Assembly: GCF_000020325.1 (NCBI RefSeq)
Contig: NC_010730.1
Coordinates: 360,001-424,000, forward strand
DNA length: 64,000 bases
Origin: Sulfurihydrogenibium sp. YO3AOP1
GTDB taxonomy: Bacteria > Aquificota > Aquificia > Aquificales > Hydrogenothermaceae
Direction of reading: 5' to 3'
In this document: positions 34,241-52,686 of the stretch, one piece after another
Layout of the letters: each line of letters starts with the position of its first letter
Position numbering within the stretch: the first letter of the stretch is position 1
Position numbers and translations under genes: made by a program
Notes under the pieces: generated by a model
Database searches by the model: none
Told to the model about the DNA's origin: nothing
Seen by the model: only the letters and a program-made list of their open reading frames with translations

Positions 34241-35029
34241 TTATTTTTTAAGATTGTTATTAAGCTCTTTCATCAACTCTTCCGTTATTGGACCTTCTGG
34301 GCTTCTTCTGATAAATTGCTGAACTACTGGGTCTGGATGGTTTTTAATCTCCTCAGGCGTCCCGATAGCGTAAATAACACCTTTATGAATCATAGCTATT
34401 CTATCTGCAATGCTAAAAGCACTTTCAAGGTCATGGGTAACTACGATAGAAGTAACTCCAAGCTCATCTCTAAGTTTTAAGATTAATTTATCAATCATTG
34501 CAGCAGTTACAGGGTCAAGTCCGGAAGATGGCTCATCATAAAGTATGATTTCTGGATTATAAGAAATTGCCCGTGCAAGGGCAACTCTTTTTCTCATACC
34601 ACCTGATAGCTGAGAAGGATATAAATTTTCCACATCTTTTAAACCAACCAACGCAAGCTTTTCTTTTGCAAGGTTATATATATCTCTTTCCGGCATTTTT
34701 GTATTTTCTAAGTAGTAAAAACCTACATTTTCCCAAACTTTTAGACTATCAAATAATGCTCCTTCTTGAAATAGATAGCCTATTTTCTTTCTAAATTCTA
34801 TTAATTCGGTATCCTTTAAAGATGTGATATCAACGTTATCGATATAGATTTTTCCTGATGTGGGTTTTAAAAGTCCGATGATGTGTTTGATAACGGTACT
34901 TTTACCGCTTCCACTACCACCCATAATAACAAAGACTTCAGACTTTTTAACATCAAATGATATATTCTTTAAAACTTCTCTATTTCCAAACTTTTTTGTA
35001 AGATTTTCAACCTTTATTTTCGTATCCAT
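34241..35029 (-). CDS. mlaF: ABC transporter ATPase MlaF (phospholipid transport)
   Basis: An ATPase of about 262 residues. Walker A is GGSGSGKSTV, the Q-loop is LFQEGALFDSL (the typical MlaF/Ttg2A sequence), the signature is LSGGMRKRVALARA and Walker B is IILYDEPSSGLDP. With MlaE and MCE proteins it powers lipid movement across the envelope. An MCE-family gene lies about 15 kb away at 50409. An upstream ATG at 35041 is in frame, but GAGG sits between it and the ATG at 35029, which is therefore preferred. Confidence 0.9.
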   Translation of the reverse strand: MDTKIKVENLTKKFGNREVLKNISFDVKKSEVFVIMGGSGSGKSTVIKHIIGLLKPTSGKIYIDNVDITSLKDTELIEFRKKIGYLFQEGALFDSLKVWENVGFYYLENTKMPERDIYNLAKEKLALVGLKDVENLYPSQLSGGMRKRVALARAISYNPEIILYDEPSSGLDPVTAAMIDKLILKLRDELGVTSIVVTHDLESAFSIADRIAMIHKGVIYAIGTPEEIKNHPDPVVQQFIRRSPEGPITEELMKELNNNLKK

Positions 35030-35194
35030 CCTAAACCTCATAAAAATTATAACATCTTTTTAAATAAAGTGAGAAAGTGCATAAAGTCATATCAGTTTAG
35101 GAAAATTGAAAAATAAAAATTGTGAAATACGTCGAATGAGAAATTCAATAAAAATAGGAGATTCTTCGCTTCGCTCAGAATGTTCTATGTTAAA

Positions 35195-50408: not shown

Positions 50409-51956
50409 ATGAAAACTTCACAAAAAGTAGGAATATTTGTTTTATTGATATCAATTTTAACAGGATATTTGATTATAAAATTTAGCGGCAAAGAGCTGGG
50501 TCAATCTTTTAAGACTTATTATGTTTATTTTGATGATGCTCAAGGTTTATCTAAGGGTGCGGATGTTCAGGTTTTAGGTGTAAAAGCAGGTAGAGTTGAA
50601 GATATAGCCTTTGAAAATGGAAAAGTTAAAGCACTTTTAAAGATAAAAGAAGAAATACCTTTATACAAAAATGCAACTGTTTCAATTAGAACTTATGGTT
50701 TAATGGGAGATAAGTATATCTATATAGATCCGGGTAGTCCTAACGCAGGCAATTTAGCAGAAAATCAGGTTATTCAAAATCAAGCAAAAGTTGCTTCAAC
50801 GGAAGAGATGATAAATCAAGTTCAGATTTCAGCACAGAAATTTGCGCAATTGATGGATAATTTAAACAAAGCCTTGGGTGATGACAGATTAAAGAAACTC
50901 ATAGAAGATTTTGATAAATTTGCTTCAAACACAAATGATGTTGTAGTAGAAAACAAAGAAGATATAAGACAGTCTATAGCCAATATCAGACAGATTACAG
51001 CAGACATTAGACAACAGCTTCCAAGTATTATCCAAAATTTAGACAAAACTCTTGAAAACACTAAAAATATAACGGCAGAAAACAGAGAAGATATGAGAAA
51101 GTTGATTGCTAACTTAAAAGACCTATCTGTTGCACTGAAAGAAAAAGCTCCCAAGACTCTTGATTCTGTAGATAAGGCAGCTACACAAATAGAACAAGCT
51201 GTTAGTGAAAATAGACAAGATTTAAAGCTATCAATCGAAAATATCAGAAAAGCATCTCAAAACTTAAACGAACTTTTGGCAAAAGTTAACGAAGGAAAAG
51301 GAACACTTGGAAAATTAGTAAATCAAGATGATATGTATAATAATGTAAATGAGGGTATAAAATCCTTTGCAGAGCCGTTTAAAGTTGTAAAAGAGTCAAA
51401 TCTTGAAGTTATCATGCAAGGTGAGAAACATACAGGAAACGATGATTCAAAAGCTGGTGCAGCATTTAGATTTATACCAACAGATGACAGATACTACTAT
51501 GTTGGAATACTTTCCAACTCTCAAGGTTATGTAGATAAAAAAGAAGAAATTACTTCAAACGGAACCACTACAACATACGTAACAAAAAAATATGGAATAC
51601 TTTTTGACCTTCAATATGCAAGAAAAATATTAACACTTGGCTCTACACAGCTTTGGGCTCGTTTTGGTATTAAAGATTCTTCAGCAGGCCTTGGTGCAGA
51701 TATAGTATTAAACGATAATTTGAAATTAGTGTCAGACCTTTATAAATTTAATAGAAAAGATTTGATAAATCAGCCAAACAATCCCGAGTTAGACATTGGA
51801 CTTGAGTACAGATTTAGTGGTTATCCAATATTTGTAAAATTTGGTGGCTCTGATTTAATAAACAGTTCTGTTAGAGGCTTTTATGTAGGTGGTGGATTTG
51901 TATTTACAGACAATTATTTAAAATATCTTCTCGGCAGTTTGCCAAAAGTTAGATAA
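50409..51956 (+). CDS. MCE-domain protein with coiled coil and C-terminal outer-membrane barrel
   Basis: A 515-residue protein with one N-terminal TM anchor (residues 7-25), an MCE/MlaD domain at about 38-115 (YYVYFDDAQGLSKGADVQVLGVKAGRV, TYGLMGDKYIYIDPG), a coiled coil at about 125-320 with three related blocks (ENKEDIRQSI, ENREDMRKLI, ENRQDLKLSI), and about 175 C-terminal residues rich in alternating amphipathic strands (YYYVGILSNSQGYV, LDIGLEYRFSGYPIFVKFGG, GFYVGGGFVF) typical of a porin-like barrel. Such a protein could itself span the periplasm for lipid traffic with MlaE/MlaF. Confidence 0.82.
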   Translation: MKTSQKVGIFVLLISILTGYLIIKFSGKELGQSFKTYYVYFDDAQGLSKGADVQVLGVKAGRVEDIAFENGKVKALLKIKEEIPLYKNATVSIRTYGLMGDKYIYIDPGSPNAGNLAENQVIQNQAKVASTEEMINQVQISAQKFAQLMDNLNKALGDDRLKKLIEDFDKFASNTNDVVVENKEDIRQSIANIRQITADIRQQLPSIIQNLDKTLENTKNITAENREDMRKLIANLKDLSVALKEKAPKTLDSVDKAATQIEQAVSENRQDLKLSIENIRKASQNLNELLAKVNEGKGTLGKLVNQDDMYNNVNEGIKSFAEPFKVVKESNLEVIMQGEKHTGNDDSKAGAAFRFIPTDDRYYYVGILSNSQGYVDKKEEITSNGTTTTYVTKKYGILFDLQYARKILTLGSTQLWARFGIKDSSAGLGADIVLNDNLKLVSDLYKFNRKDLINQPNNPELDIGLEYRFSGYPIFVKFGGSDLINSSVRGFYVGGGFVFTDNYLKYLLGSLPKVR

Positions 51957-51969
51957 AATTTGGGGGTAA

Positions 51970-52686
51970 ATGATGAAGAGAGAAAGAGAAAGGATAAATA
52001 TAGATAAAATAGAGGCTTTAAAAGAGTTAGAACTATTTAAAGAGCTTAAAGAAGAAGAGTTGAAAAATATAGAAAAGTTCTTTGTTGTAAAGAAATTTAA
52101 GAAAGGTGAATACATATTCTATGAAGGAGATAAAGAGCCGGGTATTTATTTTGTAATAGATGGAATAGTAAAGCTAATCAAAGAAACGAACGAAGGCAAA
52201 ACTGTAATACTAAGACTTGCAACAAAAGGCGAAAGCTTTGGCTGGCTTGTTATGAAAGATAACAGACCACCTGTTAATACTTATACAGCTCAAGCTTTGG
52301 TTGATACAACAGTTTTATATATATCAAATCAGGATTTCTTAAAACTGCTTCTAATGTATCCTGCTTTAGCAGTAAGAATAACGTGCGAGCTTACTAAAAA
52401 TATTCTTGAAGCATATGACAGACTTAAAAGCTTAGCTGTTGAAAAGGTAGAAGGAAGAATAGCAACGCTTATTCTCGAACTTGTTGATAAGATTGGAAAG
52501 AAAGAAGGCGATAACGTAGTAATAAATGCCCCAATAACAAGGCAAGATATAGCAGAAATGGCAGGAACAACGGTAGAAACAGCAATTAGAGTAATAAGCA
52601 GATGGAAAAAAGAAGGAATATTAGACACAGAAAGAGGCAAAATAGAGATTTTTGATATAGATTATCTTCAAGATTTGATTAGTTAG
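51970..52686 (+). CDS. Crp/Fnr-family transcriptional regulator
   Basis: A 238-residue regulator. The cyclic-nucleotide-binding beta roll covers about 35-145 (GEYIFYEGDKEPGIYFVIDGIVKLI), followed by a dimer helix and the winged helix-turn-helix ITRQDIAEMAGTTVETAIRVISRWKKEGIL at about 192-221. No N-terminal cysteine cluster is present, so it is not an oxygen-sensing Fnr. The recognition helix carries TVET..R as in Fnr/Dnr types. A GGGGGT site precedes two adjacent ATGs. Confidence 0.9.
   Translation: MMKRERERINIDKIEALKELELFKELKEEELKNIEKFFVVKKFKKGEYIFYEGDKEPGIYFVIDGIVKLIKETNEGKTVILRLATKGESFGWLVMKDNRPPVNTYTAQALVDTTVLYISNQDFLKLLLMYPALAVRITCELTKNILEAYDRLKSLAVEKVEGRIATLILELVDKIGKKEGDNVVINAPITRQDIAEMAGTTVETAIRVISRWKKEGILDTERGKIEIFDIDYLQDLIS

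Follow-up and report, generated by a model that had tools for sequence, protein, structure and literature searches.

Grasekamp et al. (2023) described in Veillonella a transenvelope MlaD with a ten-strand barrel, together with a minimal MlaEFD system (PMC10665443). According to the main text of that report, minimal MlaEFD systems with a transenvelope MlaD are widespread, the MCE half of the Veillonella protein was recovered with the inner membrane on fractionation and the barrel with the outer membrane, and the direction of transport is retrograde. In Brucella, the Mla-Pqi chimera Mpc contacts the outer membrane through a PqiC-like lipoprotein, and its MlaE carries a STAS domain (PMC12436622).

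Aquificota are not named in the main text of Grasekamp et al. (PMC10665443). The MlaD-MlaE tree presented there took clustered genes only, and hence genomes with dispersed genes, like those of the Aquificales, would not have entered it. A search for literature naming both MlaD and Aquificota gave nothing relevant (the match concerned nitrogenase genes), and we found no experimental work on a barrel-type MlaD of Aquificota in the literature.

The locus studied here lies in a stretch of 64,000 nucleotides from Sulfurihydrogenibium sp. YO3AOP1 (hereafter the window). It contains an open reading frame of 515 codons with an ATG start, and a 3-dehydroquinate synthase II gene ends one base 5' of this start. 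The gene and its main parts are as follows:

50409..51956, + strand: long barrel-type mlaD gene, 515 aa (ORF call, PF02470, orthologue alignment, AF2)
50415..50483, + strand: N-terminal inner-membrane anchor helix, residues 3-25 (AF2 helix)
50511..50735, + strand: MCE/MlaD domain, residues 35-109 (PF02470, E=4e-20)
50799..51389, + strand: periplasm-spanning helical region, residues 131-327 (AF2 helices, low confidence)
51399..51905, + strand: predicted 10-strand outer-membrane beta-barrel with a hairpin insertion, residues 331-499 (AF2, Foldseek, strand faces)
51909..51935, + strand: conserved C-terminal helix D-x-L-K-Y-L-L-G, residues 501-509 (AF2 helix)

In the full-length AF2 model, built on 48 Aquificota orthologues, residues 3-25 form a transmembrane helix and the MCE strands follow. 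Residues 131-327 are helical, the all-beta domain extends over residues 331-499 (pLDDT mostly 67-93), and residues 501-509 make up a short final helix. A hydrophobic N-terminal stretch is present in all orthologues aligned. The same domain order is kept in the 48 aligned Aquificota orthologues, which rules out a chance ORF or frame artefact and confirms that the reading frame at 50409-51956 is real. PF02470 matches the protein once, in one stretch, and Pfam thus gives a single MCE domain; this part aligns with the core of E. coli MlaD at a TMt of 0.84-0.89 in Foldseek. NCBIfam places the protein near MCE family models, with a TIGR04430 score of 81.3, under the cut-off of 135. The order of membrane anchor, MCE domain, helical blocks and beta-rich C-terminus, proposed in a preliminary description made from the sequence, is borne out by AF2, PF02470 and the 48 orthologues.

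Directly downstream of mlaD lies a gene for a Crp-family regulator (window 51970-52686), an arrangement found in all Hydrogenothermaceae loci examined. The regulator is present in most Aquificaceae loci examined too, one gene further from mlaD. Possibly, the two genes are linked in their regulation.

Between the MCE domain and the beta domain, four smaller elements can be distinguished:

50949..51077, + strand: 43-residue helical repeat 1, residues 181-223 (lag-43 autocorrelation)
51078..51206, + strand: 43-residue helical repeat 2, residues 224-266 (lag-43 autocorrelation)
51207..51293, + strand: 43-residue helical repeat 3, partial, residues 267-295 (lag-43 autocorrelation)
51294..51317, + strand: G-x-G-T-x-G-K-L motif between stalk and barrel, residues 296-303

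The preliminary description pointed out three related helical blocks, which proved to be a true sequence repeat of 43 residues, with block starts at E181, E224 and E267. The autocorrelation of residues 126-305 peaks at lag 43 (z=8.5), a value reached in 0 of 1000 shuffles, and lag 43 is the best lag in 38 of the 48 orthologues, most clearly in families f1 and f2. A shorter orthologue of 479 aa (L050) has a gap of approximately one repeat block. At 3.58 residues per turn, 43 residues make 12 turns, and the side peaks at 18, 25, 50, 61 and 68 agree with the same helical pitch. Such a pitch would suit a nearly straight helix, in which one continuous hydrophobic stripe lines a tube. A profile match to the Mce1 needle (8fed_B) covers profile positions 5-267, and the G-x-G-T-x-G-K-L motif is nearly invariant among 75 sequences. 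AF2 models the helices of the stalk with low confidence; from the repeat we infer that the stalk could form a straight periplasmic tube with a hydrophobic lining.

The C-terminal 228 residues were modelled separately, using an alignment of 75 sequences from several phyla. This gave pLDDT values of 92-98 over most strands, with a pTM of 0.74. DSSP assigns 12 strands; a poorly conserved hairpin accounts for two of them, leaving a core of ten. With this even number both ends of the domain would be periplasmic, which matches the need of the attached stalk. The top Foldseek matches in the PDB are OmpG, Vibrio OmpT, FapF, KdgM, Ail and the designed TMB10_163, all of them outer-membrane or transmembrane barrels. 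The best target-normalised TM-scores (0.59-0.62) were obtained with TMB10_163, a designed 10-strand transmembrane barrel, while the query-normalised scores are modest (<=0.42). In the core strands, least clearly in the first, hydrophobic and variable positions on one face alternate with polar or glycine positions on the other, which are more conserved.

The last strand, YVGGGFVF, is strongly conserved, with G494 in 75 of 75 and F499 in 73 of 75 sequences, and the pattern G-x-G-Hy-x-F occurs in nearly all of them. The BAM machinery recognises the pattern Po-x-G-x-x-Hy-x-Hy, which YVGGGFVF resembles except for its aromatic first position. A short helix follows the last strand in all 75 sequences, which come from several phyla (K505 in 75 of 75 and Y506 in 74 of 75 sequences). 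A search of the barrel profile against the sequences of solved structures gave no match. The beta domain is predicted to be a 10-strand transmembrane barrel.

The genome (1,838,442 bp in one contig, 99.98% complete) contains one MCE gene. It also contains one MlaE gene, which the preliminary description had left to be located and which was found at 1,754 kb on the genome, flanked by dnaB and a gene of the LptF/LptG family. In locus L033 (8083-9896), an LptF/LptG-family permease gene directly 3' of mlaE brings two envelope-lipid genes together at one locus. The ATPase gene is encoded separately from mlaD, as stated in that description:

34241..35041, - strand: mlaF, ABC ATPase partner, 15 kb from mlaD (match to operonic MlaF)

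Its product shows 55% identity with the operonic MlaF of Desulfurobacteriaceae (E=8e-85), compared to 4e-42 for the next ABC ATPase. MlaA and MlaC, when searched for, were absent from the genome. The genome encodes LpxC, two Omp85 proteins and TamB, and hence an LPS pathway and Omp85 insertion machinery exist. The three genes mlaD, mlaE and mlaF sit at three separate places, without an mlaE-mlaF-mlaD cluster. Because of this dispersal, their partnership is deduced from the single-copy presence of each and from the operons of relatives.

Across Aquificota, MlaD was found in 125 and MlaE in 126 of 136 genomes, with near-identical distributions. MlaA and MlaC were found in none of the 136, while the E. 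coli and Caulobacter controls were positive. We also ran the barrel profile against 84,980 species and considered the best 80 loci. These come from at least Aquificota, Nitrospirota, Thermodesulfobacteriota, Myxococcota-labelled deltaproteobacteria, Deferribacterota, Campylobacterota and Nitrospinota, and from one alphaproteobacterial bin; S. yellowstonense is the nearest named relative among the matches listed. In nearly all of these 80 loci the MCE domain precedes the barrel in one ORF; those that deviate are at contig ends or have frame breaks. Outside Aquificota, mlaE and mlaF lie immediately 5' of the barrel-type mlaD in most of the 80 loci with enough flanking sequence, an order seen in Nitrospirota, Desulfobacterota, Deferribacterota and Campylobacterota. 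Desulfurobacteriaceae have retained the mlaE-mlaF-mlaD order; in Aquificales genomes with contiguous sequence, mlaD and mlaE are apart. The MlaD tree matches taxonomy, with Aquificota as a single clade (support 100) and every family as a single clade. Most simply, this would mean that MlaD was inherited vertically and that the operon broke up once, in the lineage of the Aquificales.

Several loci deserve separate mention. In L046 (2551-8889 and 9774-15501), a 7.2-kb stretch with mlaE-mlaF-mlaD and the following genes occurs twice in tandem, in apparently identical copies, which reflects either a recent duplication or an assembly artefact. In the divergent family f4 (L034:4142-5500), the MCE protein has 452 aa, and its C-terminus looks beta-rich and is barely recognised by the barrel profile; possibly, this is a diverged barrel. 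In Desulfurobacteriaceae, proteins of 377-414 aa gave weak PF02470 matches. They were examined as possible additional MCE proteins and then treated as false positives, because the two loci examined from this group (L044 and L045) hold adaptor-like genes beside RND-type pumps and TolC-like genes.

Some Aquificota have an extra cassette, which is absent from the window genome. It consists of an MlaE with an N-terminal extension, an MlaF, a barrel-less MCE protein of ~305 aa and a lipoprotein of 170-187 aa (L037:223-3482, L038:3044-6222, L041:3183-6393, and in L036, L039, L040, L042 and L043). The lipoprotein profile matches PqiC (E=1e-4), and the profile of the barrel-less MCE protein has its best match, over its length, in PDB entry 13hr (E=3e-38). 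Pfam did not identify a STAS domain in the N-terminal extension of the cassette MlaE. As far as these profiles indicate, the cassette fits an Mpc-like system, as in Brucella (PMC12436622), and genomes that carry it seem to possess both means of contact with the outer membrane. In a Sulfurihydrogenibium-like genome (L035:4222-5670), the barrel-less MCE protein and the PqiC-like lipoprotein form a single ORF of 482 aa, which is either a true fusion or the result of a lost stop or frame error.

We consider it very probable that the MlaD of the window is a subunit of a minimal MlaEFD lipid transporter made up of three proteins, and bridges the inner and outer membranes by means of its barrel. The N-terminal helix would anchor each chain in the inner membrane, where six chains, by analogy with solved MCE proteins, may form an MCE ring on an MlaE2F2 ABC transporter. 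The helical segments with their 43-residue repeats would then build the periplasmic tube, and every chain would end in its own predicted 10-strand barrel, presumably inserted in the outer membrane. ATP hydrolysis by MlaF could, via MlaE, move the presumed substrate, phospholipids, along the tube, so that in this proposal a MlaC shuttle and a MlaA lipoprotein would be unneeded. By analogy with the direction given for Veillonella in the main text of Grasekamp et al. (PMC10665443), transport is probably retrograde.

Alternatively, the beta domain might stay soluble in the periplasm as a barrel or sandwich and attach to the underside of the outer membrane, or to another protein there, without inserting. 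The membrane placement of the domain is a prediction, and the conserved helix after the last strand would fit such a domain, since many outer-membrane proteins end at their last strand. Yet, essentially all of the 50 Foldseek matches listed are transmembrane barrels, and the last strand is similar to the BAM signal. Moreover, a variable hydrophobic face and a conserved polar face are the reverse of a soluble core and point to a lipid-facing barrel with a polar interior. From the strand faces and the Foldseek matches we regard a soluble domain as quite improbable. The prediction for the C-terminus, with its matches to transmembrane barrels, thus agrees with the closed barrel that was initially proposed. 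That mlaD might consist of two genes joined by a fusion or annotation error merits hardly any credence. It is true that the frame breaks between MCE part and barrel in a few relatives: by a frameshift within the helical region that leaves the two in different frames (L053:3699-5416 region, genome G001) and, outside Aquificota, by an in-frame stop (L123:5041-6663, bin Dive96_bin3.184) and by a frame break in Candidatus Manganitrophus (L151:5210-6672). However, a single intact frame is present in the window, in the 48 aligned Aquificota orthologues and in most loci outside the phylum.

The protein might also be a barrel-bearing MCE bridge that works without MlaE and MlaF, for instance as a motorless system like LetB or PqiB, or that carries another lipid or transports in the anterograde direction. 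The distance between mlaD and mlaE in contiguous Aquificales genomes would allow this, and the direction and substrate given above for MlaD are themselves inferred. It is nevertheless very improbable, given that MlaE and MlaF are single-copy orthologues in the window genome, that the sister family and several other phyla have barrel-type mlaD in one apparent operon with mlaE and mlaF, and that MlaD and MlaE have nearly the same distribution across the phylum. A broader reading, possible but rather doubtful, is that Aquificota join an MlaEF motor and MCE needle to the outer membrane in two ways, by a cis barrel fixed in the phylum and, in a few genomes, also by the separate PqiC-like lipoprotein of an extra Mpc-like cassette. 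The number of 43-residue repeats would then set the reach across the periplasm, and the conserved helix after the last strand would cap or gate the tube.

For the MlaEFD bridge, then, the suggestion of one polypeptide with a barrel that spans both membranes gains support from structure prediction, strand faces, conservation and genomic context. Its novelty calls for correction, since this architecture was published in 2023, as the main text of that report makes clear (PMC10665443). In relation to that text, the Aquificota case is more a confirmation and dense sampling of a known pattern than an extension. New are the repeat architecture, the phylum-wide fixation and the operon break-up; the kind of protein was already known. 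Barrel-type MlaD is the standard and, on the simplest reading, vertically inherited version across Aquificota, and a whole thermophilic phylum probably conducts its phospholipid traffic through a one-protein bridge, without MlaA or MlaC. This presumed bridge is common to Aquificota, Nitrospirota, Desulfobacterota, Deferribacterota and Campylobacterota. The pattern in Aquificota supports the view, expressed in the main text of PMC10665443, that the six-part Mla system of E. coli is the exception. For cryo-EM of a full lipid bridge from inner to outer membrane, orthologues from thermophiles may be good targets; the profile search found no solved relative of the barrel by sequence.

Compared to the known systems, the window protein shares a transmembrane anchor and the MCE domain fold with E. 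coli-type MlaD (MlaFEDB with MlaC and MlaA; TIGR04430). The latter is short, lacks a stalk and barrel, and needs MlaC and MlaA. With mycobacterial Mce1 and E. coli PqiB it shares an MCE ring followed by a helical tube, as reflected in the profile match to 8fed chains. However, neither of these has a C-terminal transmembrane barrel on each chain, and Mce1 is a heterohexamer while PqiB has three MCE domains. Brucella Mpc likewise combines an MCE domain and a long helical needle across the periplasm with an MlaE- and MlaF-type motor, but lacks a barrel (PMC12436622). We rejected membership of Mpc for the window gene, because a barrel is predicted and its neighbours are the DHQ synthase II and Crp-family regulator genes, with no PqiC-like lipoprotein gene adjoining.

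The closest likeness is to Veillonella parvula as described in the main text of PMC10665443. Its MlaD has the same succession of transmembrane anchor, one MCE domain, long helical region and 10-strand C-terminal transmembrane barrel. In both genomes MlaE and MlaF are present, MlaA and MlaC are absent, and an LPS pathway and TamB occur. The V. parvula protein has 419 aa compared to 515 aa here, the barrels being compared by architecture, and its stalk has ~150 residues, whereas ours has ~190 with 43-residue repeats. Furthermore, V. parvula has an mlaEFD-tolC-tamB cluster, in contrast to the dispersed genes found here. Judged by its predicted structure, the window MlaD therefore has the architecture of a long barrel-type MlaD throughout and departs from this group in gene clustering only. 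This departure does not argue against membership, since gene order usually accompanies the protein and is not one of its properties.
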